DNA of 64,000 nucleotides, taken from contig NZ_KE386885.1 in NCBI RefSeq assembly GCF_000429325.1, positions 1-64,000 of the forward strand, given 5' to 3'. Below are positions 17,572-32,410 of this stretch, piece by piece. The stretch is from Fundidesulfovibrio putealis DSM 16056 (GTDB lineage Bacteria > Desulfobacterota > Desulfovibrionia > Desulfovibrionales > Desulfovibrionaceae). Within the stretch, counting starts at the first letter, position 1. Each line of letters opens with the position of its first letter. The translations under genes and the position numbers were made by a program. Under the pieces are notes generated by a model. The model was not told the DNA's origin. It made no database searches and worked only from the letters and a program-made list of their open reading frames with translations.

Positions 17572-20112
17572 TCAGGGCATCAGCCGCTCAAGCCTTCTGC
17601 CGAGCGCGCCGGACAGGGGCAGGGGCACGACCTCCTCCCCCCGGCGGTCCATGGCCGAATCCACCAGCGCCTGTGCTTCCAAGCGCGAGAGCGCGCCTTC
17701 CCGCCGTGCGGCCACCCGCCGGGCGAGCAGCATGCGCGCATCGGCATTGGTTCCTTCTCTGGCCACTTCTCCCGAGAGAAGCTCCCGCGCCGCGACCCGC
17801 TCCCCCATGAAATAGCTCTTGCCAGCCAGATAATGCAGCACCGGCATATCCAGGGTCTGCACCGGACCGCGCAGAGGCGGCGGCGCGATCTCGCGCGCCA
17901 GCAGGCTCTCAAGCGACCCCAGGCCGATCTCCTCAAGCGAGCGGGCCACGGCAGCGTTGGAGGCAAGCGTCGCGGCGGCAGCCTCCAGGCGTGCGTCCGC
18001 GATATCCGCAGACGAGGCCAGCAGGATGAGGTCGTTGGCCTGGCTCATGAAAACGCGCACATGCGCGAACTCGGTCTTGAGCGTCTCCAGGACCGAGCCC
18101 AGCACCGTGGCCGAGGCGTCGTAGATGTGGATCCACTGCACGAAAAGACCATCCGGCGCGAGGCGTCCCCTGGCCAGACGGTAGAACTCCCTGGTGAACA
18201 GCGCGTCCACCCCCTGCACCCAGGGGTTGCTGGGCTCGGACACGATCAGGTCCCAGCGCTCAGCGGACCGGGCCAGGATGCGGAACGCGTCCCCGTGCAG
18301 GACCGCGTGCCTGGGGTCTTGGTGCACGTTCCCGGTGAAGGCCCCGAACAGGGGCAGCGCCTTGATCACCGACGACGAGATCTCCGCCGTGCCGATTCGG
18401 GCCACGTCCGGGTACAGGGCCAGCTGCCCGGAGGTGACCCCGGTGCCCATGCCGATCACCAGGGTCCGGGCGCGTCCAGGGGACAGGAGCGCGGGCAAAT
18501 GCGCCAAAAGCCGCAAGGTGGCCATGTCGGCCACCGTGGAGGAATCGGACTTGCCGTTCACCATGATGGCCAGGGGCGCTTCGGGGTGCCAGGGCTGGCG
18601 TGGGGCGCGCACCACGGCGGCGGAGCACTCGGGGCCGTCCTCCAGGAACAGGCCCTGCGCGCCGTCCAGGAACTCCCGGTAGAACGCTCCGGGCGGCAGC
18701 TGCGAATAGATCAGGGGCGTCTGCACACGGAAGGTGCCCACCATGAAACGCTGCGGGTCGTAGGCCGGATTGGACGGTATCAGGGCCACGGCGCATGCTG
18801 CCGCCAGGGCCGTGCCCCAGCGGGCCGCGCGCGAAAGCTCCCAGGCGGCAAGCCAGGCCCCGAACAGGGCCAGCACCGCGCACAGAAGATATATCTGCCC
18901 ATTGTTCAGAAACGGATGGAGCATGAGCCCGGCAATCAGGCTGCCGGAAAGGTTGCCTATGGTGTTGGCGCAGAGAATCCGGCCGCTCAGGGCTCCCACA
19001 GTGGCCAAGTCGCTGCGCAGACGGTTGAAGATGAGAGGCACGGCAGCGCCGATGAGCATGGCCGGAAGCCCCGCGACAAGGGCCAGCGCTGCGAACTCGG
19101 CAGCCTGGAAGCCCCAGAACCCGGCCAACGTCGGCGCGAACACGAGGCGCAGCCTGTGGGTCCAGTAGGGCCAGGTGTCCAGGGCGGGATACAGCAGCAG
19201 GAGCAGGGCCGCGATAAGAAGCTGGTTCACCCACATGGCCGAAAGACCCAGGCGGGAGAATCTCCCGGCCAGCAGCGCACCTGCGGCGATGGCCAGCACG
19301 AACATGCCCACCACCATGGTGAAGGCGTAGGTGGAGCCGCCCACGGACAGGGCCACGAACCGCACCAGCACGTTCTCCAGGCCCATGGCCTGGAAGCCGT
19401 TCAGCAGGGCCAGGGCCAGAAGCGCCGCCACGGGGGAGCGCCCTGCGGACATCTGCGGACGGGACTGCACCGGTACGGAGGTGAACGAGTGCGCGGGCGC
19501 GAGCCAGAACCAGCAGGCGGCCAGCAGGTTGAAGGCCGCCGCGAGCCTGAGGCTCCCGGGCAGGCCCAGCTCAGGCACGGCCACGTAGCCCGCCGCCACC
19601 GCCCCCAGGAAGGCCCCGGCGGTGTTCACGCCGTAGAGAACGGCATGGACCCGGCCCGAGGATTCCAGGTCCCGGCTCAGGGCCTGGGTCAGCAGAGGCA
19701 CTGTCGCGCCCATGCACACCGCAGGCGGCCCGATGAGCACGGCGGCCAGCCCGAACCCCTGGAAGGCCAGCCCCAGGGGCGGCTCCAGGGCCAGCCCCGC
19801 GCTGGCTGACTCCACCAGGGAAAAAATGACGGGGAAGGCCAGTCCCCACAGCCCGATGAAGGCCTCGGCCAGGGCGTAGGCCCGAAAGGGCCTGGACACG
19901 CGACGGGCCAGGCGGCCAAAGGCCCAGTAGCCAAGCGACAGCCCGCCCAGGAACGCGGCCAGCACCACCGCGGTGGCGGCCGCGTCGCCGCCCAGGAGCC
20001 GGGCCAGATAGCGCTGCCAGACCACCTCGTCCATCATGGCGGACGCGCCGGTGAGAAACACCAGCGACGCAGTGGCCGCAGACGCCGGGAAAGACCGGGC
20101 GAGCGCCTTCAT
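17572..20112 (-). CDS. Fused membrane transporter/spermidine-synthase-like protein
   Basis: 846 residues. The N-terminal ~480 residues are a many-helix MFS-like membrane domain (early MMDEVVWQRYLARLLGG, a hallmark of this fusion family). The next part carries a Rossmann SAM-type domain with VIGMGTGVTSG near residue 547 and the acidic end AEIS, then VSEPSNPWVQGVDALFT and FVQWIHIYD. These match fused MFS/spermidine synthases, widespread in Deltaproteobacteria. True polyamine synthesis is doubtful without testing, because the family includes many members of unknown substrate. The C-terminal ~150 residues are helical and may be TPR-like. It is a single-gene unit facing the tRNA. Confidence 0.8.
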   Translation of the reverse strand: MKALARSFPASAATASLVFLTGASAMMDEVVWQRYLARLLGGDAAATAVVLAAFLGGLSLGYWAFGRLARRVSRPFRAYALAEAFIGLWGLAFPVIFSLVESASAGLALEPPLGLAFQGFGLAAVLIGPPAVCMGATVPLLTQALSRDLESSGRVHAVLYGVNTAGAFLGAVAAGYVAVPELGLPGSLRLAAAFNLLAACWFWLAPAHSFTSVPVQSRPQMSAGRSPVAALLALALLNGFQAMGLENVLVRFVALSVGGSTYAFTMVVGMFVLAIAAGALLAGRFSRLGLSAMWVNQLLIAALLLLLYPALDTWPYWTHRLRLVFAPTLAGFWGFQAAEFAALALVAGLPAMLIGAAVPLIFNRLRSDLATVGALSGRILCANTIGNLSGSLIAGLMLHPFLNNGQIYLLCAVLALFGAWLAAWELSRAARWGTALAAACAVALIPSNPAYDPQRFMVGTFRVQTPLIYSQLPPGAFYREFLDGAQGLFLEDGPECSAAVVRAPRQPWHPEAPLAIMVNGKSDSSTVADMATLRLLAHLPALLSPGRARTLVIGMGTGVTSGQLALYPDVARIGTAEISSSVIKALPLFGAFTGNVHQDPRHAVLHGDAFRILARSAERWDLIVSEPSNPWVQGVDALFTREFYRLARGRLAPDGLFVQWIHIYDASATVLGSVLETLKTEFAHVRVFMSQANDLILLASSADIADARLEAAAATLASNAAVARSLEEIGLGSLESLLAREIAPPPLRGPVQTLDMPVLHYLAGKSYFMGERVAARELLSGEVAREGTNADARMLLARRVAARREGALSRLEAQALVDSAMDRRGEEVVPLPLSGALGRRLERLMP

Positions 20113-25803: not shown

Positions 25804-26880
25804 CTATCTTTTCTTGGGCGACAGCTTCGCGGAAATCCAGGCCGCATTGTCGTCCACGTAGGCGGCCACCTTCACGCTGAAATACCAGCCCAGCGCGCCC
25901 AGCACCACGAACTTGAGCCAGGGCGAGAACGAGGCCACGGGCACGTCCAGGTAGCTGAGTATCGGCTGGTGCAGGAGATAAATGGCGTAGGACGCGCCCG
26001 AGAGCCACAGCACCTTGGGGTGCGCCCCCAGGCGGGTGGCGAGCGGCAGGGCGAACAGCACCACGAACACGGCCAGGGTCCAGGCCACGTTGGCGAACCA
26101 GGGGCGCGGCACGCCAAGCATCCACAGGACAAGGCTCACGCCGCAGGCTCCGAAGATCAGCCCGCCGAGCTTGGCGTCAATGGGCCAGACCCGTTCGGGG
26201 CGTTCCTTCCAGAGCTCGGCCATCCACATGCCGATGAGAAACTCCGGCAGGCGCGACGGCAGGTTGAAGCTGGAGAGAAAGGCCAGGGTGTCGCCGATGC
26301 CGCCGGGAGCCGTGCGGCCCCAGATTTTCAGCGCCTCGGTGAGGGGCCAGACGACGAGCGTGACGGCGATGGTCAGTTTTGCCGCGCCGAATTTGCGGTA
26401 CTGCTTGAGGAGCCACGGATAGGCCAGGGTGAACTGGATGAGCAGGCCCAGCCACCAGTAGGCTGCCGTGTTGGACATGAAGGACTGGGGCCTCAGCGGG
26501 TCCAGGAAGAAGATGTGCGACAGGGTCGAGGGCAGCCAGGCCGACAGGTCGATGACCCGGTAGACCACGGCGTTGCCCAGCACCACCAGCGCCACGGCGA
26601 TGTAGTAGTGCGGGCACAGGCGCGCCAGGCGCTTGGGCAGGAAATCGCGCAGCGTGGGGATGGGGGCGGGGTTTGCGCCCACGTAGGGCATGGCCAGCAG
26701 GAAGCTGGTCATCACGTTGAAGACCACCACCCCAAGGGCCATGTCCAGGAAGGCCTCGCCGATGAGGGTCCCGGCCTGGGCGTCGCGCAGGGGGCCTATT
26801 CCTTGAAACAGATGGTGCAGGAAGATGCCCACCATGGCCACGGCACGGATGAAATGCAGTTGGGGAATGTCTCTCTTCAC
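25804..26880 (-). CDS. Membrane acyltransferase, OafA/YrhL type (acyltransferase 3)
   Basis: About 358 residues with roughly ten membrane segments. The N-terminus LHFIRAVAMVGIFLHHLF matches the acyltransferase-3 motif with the catalytic-type His in the first helix; R-x-x-R-L-x-P-x-Y appears as RLARLCPHYYI. Near the end SYAIYLLHQPIL is the conserved late-helix motif. Such proteins add acetyl or other acyl groups to surface polysaccharide, lipid or glycan; the acceptor here is unknown. The GTG at 26880 is chosen because AGGAGG lies 8-13 nt upstream. It is divergent from the hydrogenase operon. Confidence 0.85.
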   Translation of the reverse strand: MKRDIPQLHFIRAVAMVGIFLHHLFQGIGPLRDAQAGTLIGEAFLDMALGVVVFNVMTSFLLAMPYVGANPAPIPTLRDFLPKRLARLCPHYYIAVALVVLGNAVVYRVIDLSAWLPSTLSHIFFLDPLRPQSFMSNTAAYWWLGLLIQFTLAYPWLLKQYRKFGAAKLTIAVTLVVWPLTEALKIWGRTAPGGIGDTLAFLSSFNLPSRLPEFLIGMWMAELWKERPERVWPIDAKLGGLIFGACGVSLVLWMLGVPRPWFANVAWTLAVFVVLFALPLATRLGAHPKVLWLSGASYAIYLLHQPILSYLDVPVASFSPWLKFVVLGALGWYFSVKVAAYVDDNAAWISAKLSPKKR

Positions 26881-27216
26881 TGGGAACGCCTCCTGATGGT
26901 CTCCAGGGACGATACCCGAGCCCCCATACCCCTGCAAGGGCGACCTCCCGCAATGACGCTGGATTGTGAAATTTACAACAATGTAAGAATTATTCTTGCC
27001 ATCGGTTTGTTCCCCGGATAAATCCGCCTACCATTGAGAAGTGGCGTTCCGGTCCGGCTGGGCAGCACGGACCTTGCCTTCACGGCAACGTCAGCGACAG
27101 GCAGCACGAGACACATTGCGACACCAGGTCACCCGGACGCGTCCCAACAGCGCGAACGGGCGAGTTTTGCCAAACGAAAATCCGCCCGAGGGCGGCTGGG
27201 AAGAGGTGCGTCCAGA
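26881..27216. other. 336-bp divergent control region before the hydrogenase operon
   Basis: The AT-rich part 26960-27025 stands out. It contains an interrupted inverted repeat TTGTGAAATTTACAA (26964-26978), a perfect one AAGAAT-T-ATTCTT (26985-26997), and TTGCCA with TAAATC 17 bp downstream as a possible plus-strand promoter. The remainder (27030-27216) is a frame open into the small subunit but without a ribosome site. Confidence 0.4.
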
Positions 27217-28149
27217 GTGGTCACCATTGCGGAAGAATGGCTCAATTCGTGTTCGGGCTGCGAAATCGCCCTGCTGAACCTTGGCGAGACCCTGCTTGAT
27301 CTCCTGCCGGACCTGTCCTTCGTGCACATCCCCGTGCTCGCAGACAACAAATACTACGGCCAGACCGGCGAGCGAAGCGCCCTGGAGATCCCCAAGGCCC
27401 AGGTGGGCATCATCTCCGGGGGCGTGCGCAACGAAGAGCACCTGGAAGTGCTGCACGTCATGCGCAAACAGACCGACATCCTGGTGGCCCTGGGAACCTG
27501 CGCCACCGAGGGCGGCATCCCGGCCCTGGCCAACCTGACCTCCACGGCCTCCATGCGCGAGATGGTCTATCGCGGCCAGCCCTCCACCGTGCCCGGCCCC
27601 GATCCGGACACCGAAGCCCACCACCTGCCGCGCATGCTGGAGCGCTGCGACGCCCTGCACCAGCACGTGGCCGTGGACCTGTCCATCCCCGGATGCCCGC
27701 CGCATCCCGACTGGATCGCCGAGGCCATCGGGGCGCTCCTGGCCGGACGCGCGCCGAAGTTGCCCAGCCGCTCGGTCTGCGACGGGTGCCCCACGTATCG
27801 CACCGGCAAAAGCAGCTCCCCCGCCCTGCACCGCCTGCTGGACCAGCCCGCTTACGACGCCGACCAGGGCCTGGACGCCATGCAGTGCCTGCTGGAGCAG
27901 GGCTTCATGTGCCTTGGCCCGGTGACCCGGCGCGGCTGCGGAGGCCGCACGGGCTCGCCGCGCTGCATAAGCGCGCGCGTGCCCTGCCGGGGCTGCTACG
28001 GGCGCATCTCCGCGCACACCATGCCCATGGTGGACTACGTGGGCGCGCTCACCTCGGTGGGCCAGAATTTCGCCGCCATGCCCGACAAGCAGGGGTATCT
28101 CTCCCGCTTCGACGGGTCCGAGGCCATCCTCAAGAAGTTGGAGGACTAG
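27217..28149 (+). CDS. Cytoplasmic NiFe-hydrogenase small subunit (MvhG-like)
   Basis: About 310 residues. The small subunit holds the iron-sulfur clusters that pass electrons from the NiFe site. EEWLNSCSGCE (cysteines at about 12 and 15) is the proximal-cluster motif, followed by LGTCATEGGIPAL and IPGCPPHPDWI; later cysteines (CDGCPT, CLGPVTRRGCGG, CRGCYG) suit further clusters. There is no Tat signal, so it is cytoplasmic, as in group 3 (F420-non-reducing/Mvh) enzymes. I favour GTG at 27217 (VVTIAEEW) after GGAAGAGGTG; the open frame extends to 27034 with unconserved sequence. The large subunit starts 6 bp after it. Confidence 0.88.
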   Translation: MVTIAEEWLNSCSGCEIALLNLGETLLDLLPDLSFVHIPVLADNKYYGQTGERSALEIPKAQVGIISGGVRNEEHLEVLHVMRKQTDILVALGTCATEGGIPALANLTSTASMREMVYRGQPSTVPGPDPDTEAHHLPRMLERCDALHQHVAVDLSIPGCPPHPDWIAEAIGALLAGRAPKLPSRSVCDGCPTYRTGKSSSPALHRLLDQPAYDADQGLDAMQCLLEQGFMCLGPVTRRGCGGRTGSPRCISARVPCRGCYGRISAHTMPMVDYVGALTSVGQNFAAMPDKQGYLSRFDGSEAILKKLED

Positions 28150-28155
28150 ACCGAC

Positions 28156-29607
28156 ATGTCACAGACCATCCGCATCGCGCCGCTCACGCGCATAGAGGGC
28201 CACGCCGCCCTGGACATCCACCTGGACCAGGACGGCGACGTGTCCGAGGCCCGCATGACGGTCATGAGCCTGCGCGGGTTCGAGAAATTCGTGGTGGGAC
28301 GCCCCGTGGAGGAGGTGCCGCGCATCGTCACCCGCATCTGCGGCATCTGCCCCTGGCAGCACCATCTGGCCTCCACCAAGGCCGCCGAGGCCTGCCTGGG
28401 GGTCACCCCCACGCCCACGGCCACCAAGCTGCGCGAGCTCTGCCAGATGCTGGCCACCATCCCCGACAAGATCCTGCACTTCTACTTTCTGGCCGCCCCG
28501 GACTTCGTGCTCGGCCCCGACTCCGACCCGGCGGGCCGCAACGTGGTCGGGCTGGTGGGCGCCGCGCCGGAGCTGGCCCGCAAGGCCGCGCTCATGCGCT
28601 ACAAGACCCAGATGGGGCTCGAAAAGTTCGCGGGCAAGGTCATCCATCCGGTGGCCGTGCTGGTGGGCGGCTTCTCCAAGCCGCTCATGGAGGAAGACCG
28701 CCGAGAGCTGACCGCCCTGGCCCAGGAAGCCCTGGCCTTCAGCCTGGAGAGCGTGAAGCTGGCGCGCGAGCAGATTTTCCCCAAATACCTGAAGCTCTTC
28801 CAGGAGCTCGGCGAATACCCCAGCGCTTACCTGGGGCTCGTGAACCCAGACGACGGGGCCATGGCCCTCTACGACGGCATATTCCGCCTCATGGATCAGG
28901 ACGGCTCCTACGACGAGTTCCCGGCTTCGGACTATCTGGCACACCTGGCCGAGAAGGTCGAACCCTGGAGCTACCTGAAATTCCCGTACATGCGAAAGTC
29001 CGGCAGGCTGGTCATGGACGAGAAAGCGCCCGTCGGCGTGTACCGCACCAACTGCCTGGCCCGCGTGAACGTGTGTGAGGGCATCTCCACCCCCCAGGCC
29101 CACGGCGAGCTGGAAATCTTCCGGCGCGAGTTCGGACGCCCCGCGCACCAGGCCTTCCTGTACCACTGGGCGCGGCTCATCGAGCTGGTGCACTGCTGCG
29201 AGCGGGCCCTGGAACTGTTGGCCGACCCGGAAATCATGGGCCGCGACATCCGCACCCAGCCCATCGCGCCCCGCGCGGGCGAAGGCGTCGGCTGCGTGGA
29301 GGCCCCGCGCGGCAGCCTGATCTATCATCTGAAGACCGACCACGAGGGCATGGTCACTGCCGCAAACCTGCTGGCCGGAACCACCCACAACAACGCGGGC
29401 ATGAACCTCTCGCTCAAGCAGGCGGCCAAGACGGCCATCCGTGGCGGCGTGTACGACCAGGGCCTGTTGAACACCGTGGAGATGTGCGTGCGCGCCTACG
29501 ACCCGTGAATGAGCTGCGCCACGCACCGCCTGGACGGCGGTGTCGACATGACCGTGCGGCTTCTGGATACCAAGGGCGAGGTGCTCGACGTGCTGAGGCG
29601 TTCCTGA
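28156..29607 (+). CDS. [NiFeSe]-hydrogenase large subunit with in-frame TGA (selenocysteine)
   Basis: 483 residues if TGA at 29506-29508 (codon 451) is read as selenocysteine. The first metal motif RICGICPWQHH carries Cys62 and Cys65. The frame up to the TGA ends AYDP, and the frame after it reads MSCATH, giving DP-U451-MSC454-ATH457, the C-terminal motif with Sec in place of its first Cys. Translation continues for 26 residues after His457, a usual cleaved tail, to TGA at 29605-29607, which overlaps the ATG of the maturation protease. A SECIS-like stem-loop follows the first TGA. Stopping at 29508 would delete half of the active site. Known family: Sec-containing Mvh/Vhu-type hydrogenases. 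Inference: the host has SelABCD, which is not in this window. Confidence 0.9.
29523..29543 (+). promoter_or_regulatory. Candidate bacterial SECIS stem-loop
   Basis: GCACCGCC pairs with GGCGGTGT (7 Watson-Crick pairs plus one G-U) around the loop TGGAC. The loop starts 22 nt after the TGA codon and has G in its second position; both fit the published general bSECIS pattern. It lies inside the coding sequence, as bacterial SECIS elements do. Confidence 0.6.
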
Positions 29608-30113
29608 TGGACTGGTCCGCCATGTTCAGCGCGCCGGTCGTGGTGCTGGGCTGCGGCAACACCCTGTTCGGCGACGATGGCATCGGGCCGAGGGCCGTTG
29701 CCGAGCTGGCCGACGAATGCCATCCAGACAGTGGAGCCGTATTCCTGGACGCGGGCACCTCGGTGCGCACGCTGCTGGCCGACCTGCTGCTCTCGGGCGC
29801 GTCGCCCAGGCGGCTGATCGTGGTGGACGCGGTGATGGAGCCGGACCGCGAGCCGGGGAGCATCCTCGAGTGGCCCCTGCGCGACAGTTCAGACCCCGGC
29901 AAGCGCCCCGCCAGCCTGCATCAGGCCCCCACGCCGATGCTGCTGGAGGCGGTGCGCAGCCGCCTGGGCTGCGAGGTGCGGGTGCTGACCGTGCAAGCCG
30001 CGCGCATCCCCGAAGAGATGGACGAAACCATGAGCCCCGAGGCCCTGGCCGCTCTCCCAGAACTCAAGGCCGCCATCAGGCGGCTGTGCAGCGCTTCAAG
30101 GAGTGACGCATGA
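29607..30113 (+). CDS. Hydrogenase maturation endopeptidase (HyaD/HycI family)
   Basis: 168 residues. It removes the C-terminal peptide of the large subunit after nickel insertion. VVLGCGNTLFGDDGIGPRAV (about residues 11-30) is the family signature with the first metal-sensing acidic residue. FLDAGTS and the VVDAVMEP segment provide the next acidic site, and LHQAPTP the His-containing motif. The ATG overlaps by 1 nt the true stop of the large subunit (TGATG), a strong sign of coupling and that the large subunit is translated past the internal TGA. Its last 4 nt overlap the next gene. Confidence 0.88.
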   Translation: MDWSAMFSAPVVVLGCGNTLFGDDGIGPRAVAELADECHPDSGAVFLDAGTSVRTLLADLLLSGASPRRLIVVDAVMEPDREPGSILEWPLRDSSDPGKRPASLHQAPTPMLLEAVRSRLGCEVRVLTVQAARIPEEMDETMSPEALAALPELKAAIRRLCSASRSDA

Positions 30114-30865
30114 ACCGCATCGACCATCCGTCCCTGTCCATGGACATGGACCGCCTGATTCACGACTTCTCCCTCTGCCACGGCTGCGGCCTGTGCGGAG
30201 AGGTCTGCCCGCGCGGGGCCATCACCGTGGACAGCGTGCGCGAGCCCTCCGGGGGCCTGGGCAAGCACCCCCACCTGGACGAGAGCGCCTGCATCCACTG
30301 CGGACGTTGCGGCTCGGTCTGCGCCAGCGGCGCAATCGGCCAGGAGAAGTTCACGGAGCTGGTGGAGCAGATGCAGGCCGGGAACGAGGATCATCTGGTG
30401 TTCTTCTGCCGCGCGCTCAACCTTGCCCAGCCAAGCATCCTGGAATCCGGCGAGTTCGGCCTGAACACGCCCCTGGTGAACGTGCGCAAGGTGCCCCAGC
30501 TCTCGCGGGTCGCGCTCCCTGACGGCGTCAAACTGGTGGACGTGCGCTGCACGGGACGCATCGGGGCGCGCACGCTGCTGTCGCTGTTGCTGGCCGGGGT
30601 GAAGGGCGTTTTGATCTTCGCCTGCCCACCCCACGACTGCGAATACGGCAGGGACACCTGTCTGGCCGCGCTGCACGTGGATGGTCTGCGCTCTCTGCTG
30701 AAGGCCTACGGCATGGGGGATTCGCGGGTGGAGATACTCTTCGAGCAGCCCGCCAGCCCGGCGGAGGTGGAAGCCGTGATCGAGCGATTCCGCCAGGGAC
30801 GCCTGAAGGTGACCGGGCAGGCCCTCCGCAAGGACTCTTCAAACAACCGGGTCAGCGGCTTCTGA
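30110..30865 (+). CDS. Ferredoxin-MvhD fusion, electron-transfer subunit of the hydrogenase
   Basis: 251 residues. Residues 20-80 hold two [4Fe-4S] motifs (C23-x2-C26-x2-C29-x3-C33 and C61-x2-C64-x2-C67-x3-C71). The remaining part is an MvhD/FlpD-like domain with VDVRCTGRIGARTLLSLLLAGVKGVLIFACPPHDC and ALHVDGLRSLLKAYG, including paired cysteines for a [2Fe-2S] cluster. In methanogens MvhD links the hydrogenase to heterodisulfide reductase HdrA. Here it is fused to a dicluster ferredoxin and no HdrA is adjacent, so the partner may be encoded elsewhere or replaced. AAGGAGTGACGC precedes the ATG, which overlaps the protease stop (ATGA). Confidence 0.83.
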   Translation: MNRIDHPSLSMDMDRLIHDFSLCHGCGLCGEVCPRGAITVDSVREPSGGLGKHPHLDESACIHCGRCGSVCASGAIGQEKFTELVEQMQAGNEDHLVFFCRALNLAQPSILESGEFGLNTPLVNVRKVPQLSRVALPDGVKLVDVRCTGRIGARTLLSLLLAGVKGVLIFACPPHDCEYGRDTCLAALHVDGLRSLLKAYGMGDSRVEILFEQPASPAEVEAVIERFRQGRLKVTGQALRKDSSNNRVSGF

Positions 30866-30937: not shown

Positions 30938-32410
30938 TTATTCGAACCGGATGACCACCAGGGTGACGTCGTCTTCCTGCGCGCCGCCGTCCAGGAACTC
31001 GCGCCAGTCTTCCGTGATGGCGTCCAGGATTTCCTGGGCGGACTTCCCAGCATCCTGAGCGGCGCTGCGCCTGATGACCTCGCGCAGGCGGTCCTTGCCG
31101 TACATCACCGAGCCGTCGGGGCTGAAGCTCTCCCACAGGCCGTCCGTGCCGAGCACCAGCACCTTGCCCTGGGGCCATTCCCCCAGGCGGCGGGCCATGT
31201 AGGAGCTCTCCTGGTCCACGGCCAGGGGCAGGCCGCGCCCCATCAGTTCAGAGAACTCGTCCGTGGCCGGGTCGTAGATCATGGCAGGGTCGTGCCCCGC
31301 GCGCACCCACTCCAGGCGCTTGTTCACCGGGTCCAGCACCAGCATGAACATGGTGATGAAGTGGCTGCTGGAGGCCACGTCGCGGGACAGGTGGCGGTTC
31401 AGGGTGGTCACGATGCGCGAGGTGTCCGACAGGCACAGCGCGGCCTGACGCAGGAATCCCCTGGCAGAGGCCATGAGCAGGGCCGAATCCACGCCGTGGC
31501 CGGATACGTCCGCCACCACCACGGCCAGATTGTCCCCGGCCAGCTCCAGAAAATCGTAGTAGTCGCCCCCGGTCTGGCCGGAATAGATGGCCGTGGCGGC
31601 CATCTCCATGCCGGGGCGCAGGGGGATCTTGCCCGGCAGCAGGCTTTGCTGCACGGCCTGGGCCTGATCCAGGGCCTTCATCAGCTCGGTGCGGTGCCGT
31701 AGCCCCTCGATCATGGCGTTGGTGCGCGCGGCGATCACCCCGAACTCGTCCGCCGTGGCCACGGGGATGAACTTGCTGAGGTCTCCCCGGCTGACGGCCT
31801 CCAGCACTGTGGTCTGCTCACCCAGGAGGCGACGCAGGTTCTCGGAGTAGCGCATCACCAGAAGGGCCACCGCCACCAGCAGAATCACCGTGACGTACAC
31901 CACTTCCAAGGTCACGGCGCGCTTGGCCTCGGCCAGGGCCGCCGGGCTGCCGGTCTGCCCGGCCAGCCAGTCCACGCCGTTGGTCAGGATGACGGTCAGG
32001 AGCGCCGAAACCACCACGGCCGACCCCAGGCCCGCCACGGCGAACTTGCGGGCCATGGGGCGGATGCGCTCCGGCGGGATGCGCCAGTTCTTGGTGCAGG
32101 CCCGGTCGATTATGCGCCGCTGGCGCGACAGGGTGGAATCCATTGCCAGGAAAAAGGCCAGGGCGGCCATGCCGATCCACAGCTTCACCCCGCTGAACAG
32201 GGGGAAGTCCAGCACGATGGCCTCAAAGCTGAGGGCGAACGCCCCGCCCAGGAATCCAAGGCTGAAGTCCAGCACGAACTGCCAGCGGGGTTGATCGAAA
32301 ATGTCGCGGCTCTCCACCAGGGCCTTTTCCAAAGGCGACCGGAAGAGCAGCGGCAGCGAGAAGCCGCCCAGGATGATCGCCCCCAGTTCCACGGGGGGCA
32401 GGGCATCCAT
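30938..32410 (-). CDS. SpoIIE/RsbU-type PP2C serine phosphatase, membrane-bound
   Basis: 490 residues. There are about four membrane segments in the N-terminal 190 residues, then a HAMP-like linker (LRRLLGEQTTVLEAVSRGDLSKFIPVATADEFG) and a PP2C/SpoIIE domain. The latter begins AVQQSLLPG, contains GGDYYDFLEL, VVVADVSGHGVDSALLM and LGTDGLWES, and ends EDDVTLVVIR; the aspartates of these motifs bind the two Mn/Mg ions. Such proteins dephosphorylate anti-sigma-factor antagonists in partner-switching pathways. No STAS or anti-sigma gene is nearby. A 27-residue membrane peptide frame ends 6 nt before its start, and the ATG lacks its own ribosome site, so translation is probably coupled. Confidence 0.88.
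   Translation of the reverse strand: MDALPPVELGAIILGGFSLPLLFRSPLEKALVESRDIFDQPRWQFVLDFSLGFLGGAFALSFEAIVLDFPLFSGVKLWIGMAALAFFLAMDSTLSRQRRIIDRACTKNWRIPPERIRPMARKFAVAGLGSAVVVSALLTVILTNGVDWLAGQTGSPAALAEAKRAVTLEVVYVTVILLVAVALLVMRYSENLRRLLGEQTTVLEAVSRGDLSKFIPVATADEFGVIAARTNAMIEGLRHRTELMKALDQAQAVQQSLLPGKIPLRPGMEMAATAIYSGQTGGDYYDFLELAGDNLAVVVADVSGHGVDSALLMASARGFLRQAALCLSDTSRIVTTLNRHLSRDVASSSHFITMFMLVLDPVNKRLEWVRAGHDPAMIYDPATDEFSELMGRGLPLAVDQESSYMARRLGEWPQGKVLVLGTDGLWESFSPDGSVMYGKDRLREVIRRSAAQDAGKSAQEILDAITEDWREFLDGGAQEDDVTLVVIRFE

Follow-up and report, generated by a model that had tools for sequence, protein, structure and literature searches.

Does the gene for a nickel-dependent hydrogenase in Fundidesulfovibrio putealis DSM 16056 end where the standard code ends it, or is its in-frame TGA read as selenocysteine (Sec)? 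The gene lies in the 64,000-nucleotide stretch that we analysed as a whole (positions 1 to 64,000 of contig NZ_KE386885.1, assembly GCF_000429325.1; hereafter the window). Read directly from the ATG at 28156, the frame stays open up to a TGA at 29506–29508, which is codon 451, and beyond it continues as MSCATHRLDGGVDMTVRLLDTKGEVLDVLRRS to a second TGA at 29605–29607. The truncated frame of the standard code has 450 residues and the read-through frame 483. The first-pass annotation of this DNA gave the coordinates and the residue number exactly, and re-reading the frame also confirmed its account of the surroundings: the TGA replaces the first Cys of the C-terminal NiFe motif, with DPUMSCATH continuing in frame; the second TGA overlaps the ATG of the following maturation protease gene (29607–29609) by 1 base; and the first TGA is separated from that ATG by 98 bases. 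It had further held that a stop at the first TGA would remove half of the nickel ligands, as is indeed the case, with Sec451 and Cys454 lost and Cys62 and Cys65 of the N-terminal motif RICGIC kept. The large subunit contains both nickel motifs of group 3c hydrogenases, RxCGxC and DP(C/U)xxCxxH.

Our main reading, to which we assign a probability of about 96%, is that the gene product serves as large subunit in a soluble [NiFeSe] hydrogenase of the MvhA/Vhu type, located in the cytoplasm, and that hairpin-guided SelB and tRNA-Sec decode UGA 451 as Sec. The features of the locus are collected in Table 1.

Table 1. Predicted features of the hydrogenase locus, in window coordinates.
Feature	Coordinates	Strand	Evidence
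mvhG-like small subunit; start GTG 27217 set by eye from relatives that start near ...VAEEWLNS/ACS/AGCE	27217–28149	+	NF045875 VhuG, 208 bits (cut-off 450); Pfam Oxidored_q6 on 27226–28146
MvhA/Vhu-type large subunit with predicted Sec451	28156–29607	+	Frame, profile matches, alignment of relatives
In-frame TGA, predicted to be read as Sec	29506–29508	+	Conserved codon, hairpin, sel genes
SECIS-like hairpin of 5 pairs (29526–29530 with 29536–29540), loop UGGAC at 29531–29535	29526–29540	+	Folds, comparison
C-terminal extension after His457, 26 residues, expected propeptide	29527–29604	+	Frame, tails of relatives
Hydrogenase maturation protease	29607–30113	+	TIGR00072, 95.6 bits (cut-off 47.45); Pfam HycI
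Ferredoxin (two 4Fe-4S motifs) fused to MvhD/FlpD-like domain	30110–30865	+	Pfam FlpD, 61.4 bits, and Fer4; NF040770 HdrA2 positions 575–770, 79 bits, below cut-off

The TGA is conserved among relatives

We compared the gene with homologues from a first set of 59 genomes, the window's own included. All 12 matches with at least 55% identity (window excluded) contain one TGA inside the match, with L031 having in addition a TAG that is its end; in all 12, the TGA falls at the same codon and the downstream tail is conserved. Homologues at 42–46% identity (L035–L037) have Cys at the Sec codon. To these were added the best 80 of 577 confirmed stretches from a scan of named genomes, in which one of the two search patterns requires Cys at the site. 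A further draw of 395 genomes from the phylum gave, among the matches listed, hits at E 1e-90 in 122 genomes, and from these the 29 new loci (L158–L186) were read; rows missed by the motif patterns were read by tblastn. Across the resulting 125 MvhA-type rows, near-copies among them (L024 duplicates L078), the aligned site is TGA in 61 and Cys in 64 (38 TGC, 26 TGT).

Among the 50 best matches of the phylum draw (49–100% identity), 46 have one TGA and four have none, namely G211, G304 and G062, which lack both TGA and TAG, and G245, which has two TAG. The last of these, a close MvhA match (52%; G245:C32:161-1513), carries both TAG codons in frame, and these could be damage or TAG decoding. One TGA somewhere in frame was also seen in distant MvhA matches at 39–44% identity (G249:C74, G086:C1:1335651, G122:C1:4476, G352:C161 and G199:C347); Sec may also have emerged, or survived, beyond the clade analysed here.

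Three of the 61 Sec rows were identical to others or shorter than 400 residues; the remaining 58 were combined with the 30 of the 64 Cys rows nearest to the window in a tree of 88 rows. We used a quick method with midpoint rooting, kept the Sec-codon columns with Sec written as Cys, and flagged long Cys branches. The 58 Sec rows form one side of a branch with support 96, a result for the sampled rows only, as sampling was by similarity to the window and the TGA-less G211, G304, G062 and G245 lie outside it. With G001, G009 and G024, the window forms a clade of four (support 100, stem 0.30).

A SECIS-like hairpin accompanies the TGA

In bacteria, a SECIS element is a hairpin just downstream of the UGA, with a G at the start of its loop. 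The hairpin of the window begins 17 bases past the TGA and covers codons 457–462, which encode the place where the protease is expected to cut and the start of the tail. Counting distinct 36-base stretches, all 52 Sec sequences have five standard pairs and a G at loop position 1 or 2; full pairing occurs in none of the 64 Cys sequences, and 28 of them have the loop G. Among the Sec sequences, both-sided changes are found at three of the five pairs: the lowest pair changes from C-G to U-A in 12 sequences, and the others are a G-C to A-U change and a C-G to U-A change in one sequence each. The change at the lowest pair also alters the protein, with the Gly after LDG becoming Asp in 11 sequences and Glu in one. 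The protein is altered in L089 too, where it reads H-C-L-D-G-S. Eight Cys rows at 49–55% identity encode a mostly similar peptide (LDG, MDG or FDG in seven of them), and the pairing is not kept.

Folding the window's own sequence gave z values of −0.92, −0.26, −2.52 and −0.68 for 40, 50, 60 and 91 bases, respectively. When HRLDGG was encoded with random synonymous codons, the five pairs arose in 17% of cases with equal codons and in 55% with the gene's own usage. Given these z values and the 55% chance pairing in a GC-rich gene, the case for the hairpin is carried by the sequence set. RNAalifold on 13 rows returned a covariation term of only −0.2, with one both-sided change, and Rfam at gathering thresholds reported no family at the hairpin and only a tRNA in the window. 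Judged by the comparison of sequences, the hairpin of the TGA genes is SECIS-like, conserved and covarying.

The genome encodes the selenocysteine machinery

The first-pass annotation had proposed a search for selA, selB, selC and selD in the genome, and all were found above curated cut-offs. Profile searches of the genome detected selA (533 bits, cut-off 22.8), selB (366 bits, cut-off 242) and selD (335 bits, cut-off 125). The tRNA-Sec model matched two places over its cut-off; ARAGORN calls the best of them tRNA-Sec (anticodon tca) and the second tRNA-Ser. In the same searches of 14 control genomes, selA, selB and selD each passed in two and the tRNA-Sec model in five; for the tRNA, the ARAGORN call settles the identity.

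Other genes of this genome also have in-frame TGA codons. The selD gene (G000:C4:15480-16400, L018) has one, read as AGUAAK, and two formate dehydrogenase alpha genes (G000:C1:374419-377436 and G000:C6:126350-129367) have one each, somewhere within the gene. All three are probably selenoprotein genes too.

Two other readings of the TGA have to be weighed against decoding as Sec. If translation really ended there, or if the codon were the lesion of a pseudogene, the product would be truncated or a dead hydrogenase; the standard code does end there and leaves a frame of 450 residues, but the frame and its C-terminal motif go on, the tail is conserved, 61 rows from many genomes share the TGA at this codon and the second TGA is where the following gene begins, all of which makes this reading highly improbable. 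Alternatively, the TGA could be a sequencing error for TGC or TGT, the first-pass annotation having raised resequencing to one of these codons at 29506 as a refutation. One substitution would turn the codon into one for Cys, the residue of the 64 Cys rows; however, many other genomes have TGA at the same codon together with the hairpin, and the Cys genes lack the hairpin. An error of this kind is therefore improbable in the extreme. We thus return to decoding as Sec: the annotation's central claim, that the large subunit is a selenoprotein, is supported by the sel genes, the conserved TGA and the covarying hairpin, and on this sequence evidence the gene is a real and well-supported case within a family of selenoproteins that is already known.

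The large subunit is probably of the MvhA/Vhu family

The large subunit matched the Pfam nickel-dependent hydrogenase domain. Its best NCBIfam match was VhuA, at 407 bits (curated cut-off 800), and a match to the VhuU profile (37 bits, cut-off 70) spans the Sec site. The best solved relative was MvhA of the Mvh–Hdr complex (5odc, 376 bits), followed by 9sfi (368 bits), the NAD-reducing 5xf9 (366 bits), and 9sw2 and 7t2r (362 bits each). The operon has the arrangement expected of group 3c, with mvhG before the large subunit and a ferredoxin–MvhD fusion after the protease. We accordingly place the large subunit in group 3c, an assignment that draws on the profile and structure matches and on the adjoining genes of mvhG and mvhD type rather than on phylogeny relative to other groups. 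The UxxC motif with its Sec is common to the window's gene and the MvhA/VhuA/VhuU family (NF041785, NF041786); the gene differs in encoding a single chain, whereas NCBIfam models VhuA (418 positions) and VhuU (45 positions) separately.

The periplasmic HysA [NiFeSe] hydrogenase was considered as a candidate and rejected, as the match to its model NF045518 reached 139 bits, far below the cut-off of 780. Sec occupies the same motif position in both, but the sequence after the TGA differs. Among the relatives, we also found Sec genes with the motif DPULGCAVH (L047, L048, L049 and L051), which by our reading are HysA-like.

Selenoproteins of this kind are already in print, as Sec-MvhA/VhuU and in the hdrA-frhD-frhG-frhA operons of Deltaproteobacteria (parts of PMC13188914 and PMC1794560). 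The available text of PMC13188914 tabulates MvhA/VhuA/VhuU as a Sec family and describes clustering of frhA, hdrA and frhD in some bacteria, particularly Deltaproteobacteria; that of PMC9312934 lists the same Sec family, and the available sections of PMC4287179 and PMC6687939 contain nothing on Sec-MvhA.

The operon lacks an adjacent hdrA

Within the operon, there is a gap of 6 bases between mvhG and the large subunit, followed by the 1-base overlap with the protease and a 4-base overlap between the ATG of the fusion gene and the protease stop. At or near their starts, the window's protease and most of its relatives' read M-D/E-W-S. The ferredoxin–MvhD fusion has Cys where the relatives' MvhD has Sec, and 12 Cys are invariant in all three sequences compared (window, L052 and L061). 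A promoter scan found none, and a terminator scan gave one site, not above shuffles.

Between window positions 18001 and 42000, no HdrA match above 35 bits was found except for the ferredoxin part of the fusion; the adjacent hdrA that marks a bifurcating Mvh–Hdr locus is absent here. We compared 35 Sec loci, or 34 without the duplicate L078. An HdrA match lies upstream in 26 of the 34 distinct loci (weak in L102, at 171 bits). Upstream HdrA is lacking in the window, L052, L053 and L061, which are the window's four-member subclade, and mvhD does not adjoin the gene in this subclade either; in L052 and L053, about 4.6 kb of upstream sequence is filled by other genes. L092, L097 and L099 have less than 2 kb upstream and are uninformative on hdrA, and L089 has neither HdrA nor MvhD within its 4.3 kb. 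All eight hdrA genes of relatives that were read contain Sec, as do all three readable mvhD genes. The fusion lies downstream of the protease in three of the four subclade members (window, L052 and L061); the L053 contig ends inside mvhA.

One of the related loci, L079, is the gene of Candidatus Desulfobulbus rimicarensis. In this organism, Mvh is reported beside Hdr, and the available part of the paper mentions Sec for formate dehydrogenase only (PMC7117923). Operons of the form hdrA-frhD-frhG-frhA with Sec are described in Syntrophobacter fumaroxidans and Desulfotalea psychrophila (PMC1794560, in part). Most of the compared Sec loci (26 of 34) share their upstream HdrA; the window's gene differs in having no adjacent hdrA or mvhD and a Cys-type ferredoxin–MvhD fusion after the protease. 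MvhA2DG of Desulfobacterium autotrophicum is, according to the available portion of PMC2702500, a cytoplasmic selenocysteine-containing hydrogenase, like the one predicted here, in a sulfate reducer. Unlike the window's operon, it is clustered with hdrA1 and hysAB, and the list in that portion of the paper puts Sec in mvhD genes. We recognised no description of an hdrA-less form of the Sec-mvhA operon in a non-exhaustive literature search. The hdrA-less operon is the less usual part of this locus and worth following.

Two accounts of this arrangement can be given. In the first, which we hold tentatively and at slightly less than even odds, a subclade of Desulfovibrionaceae would have detached Sec-MvhA from HdrA-based bifurcation: hdrA and the Sec-type mvhD would have been lost, a Cys-type ferredoxin–MvhD fusion would stand in their place and make up a small H2:ferredoxin-type module, and within the operon Sec would be kept only at the nickel. 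In the other, the Sec enzyme would still work within an electron-bifurcating Mvh–Hdr complex whose HdrA is encoded elsewhere in the genome. HdrA2-like matches are present on other contigs, the best covering profile positions 1–775 of 777 and the next 1–644, none of them over the curated cut-off, and the fusion retains MvhD-type cysteines. Against a remote HdrA, the two best HdrA2-like matches each adjoin an MvhD match of their own (both of these MvhD genes have Cys), and the locus and its three closest kin are without hdrA in the sequence available; we regard this account as possible, its chances falling a little short of one in two.

Proposed mechanism and significance

In our model, SelB would bring tRNA-Sec to UGA 451, guided by the hairpin downstream, and Sec451 would serve as a terminal nickel ligand alongside Cys62, Cys65 and Cys454. 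In the hydrogenase family, maturation involves cleavage after the His; here, after nickel insertion, the neighbouring protease would trim the 26 residues that follow His457. Electrons from H2 would pass through MvhG to the ferredoxin–MvhD fusion and on to an acceptor, which would be encoded elsewhere, as there is no hdrA at the locus.

Sec genes of this type can be annotated as truncated, which would hide functional hydrogenases. In our sample, the clean split between Sec and Cys genes is matched by presence or absence of the hairpin, and this should be useful for finding such genes. The expected propeptide starts with codons that also form the hairpin, and the RNA signal would thus constrain residues that the mature protein probably lacks. 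With its missing hdrA, the operon for its part lets one ask, in a natural setting, if a Sec-containing Mvh hydrogenase is able to work without a local bifurcating partner.

Neighbouring genes

In two sister genomes, the proposed H2:ferredoxin-type module adjoins a molybdenum oxidoreductase (thiosulfate reductase-like or formate dehydrogenase-like), encoded upstream of mvhG in L061 (11455–14045) and L053 (358–2463); PhsA is its best NCBIfam match, followed by formate dehydrogenase, both below cut-off. L061 also has a DmsB-like iron–sulfur protein (below the curated cut-off) encoded between the molybdenum oxidoreductase and the hydrogenase genes. Upstream of the window's operon, a gene on the minus strand (25804–26937) had no NCBIfam match at 1e-10; in G001, its homologue occupies the corresponding position. 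On the other side, the operon is adjoined by a minus-strand gene (30938–32410) for a SpoIIE-type phosphatase with a MASE10 domain, a homologue of which also adjoins the operon in G001.
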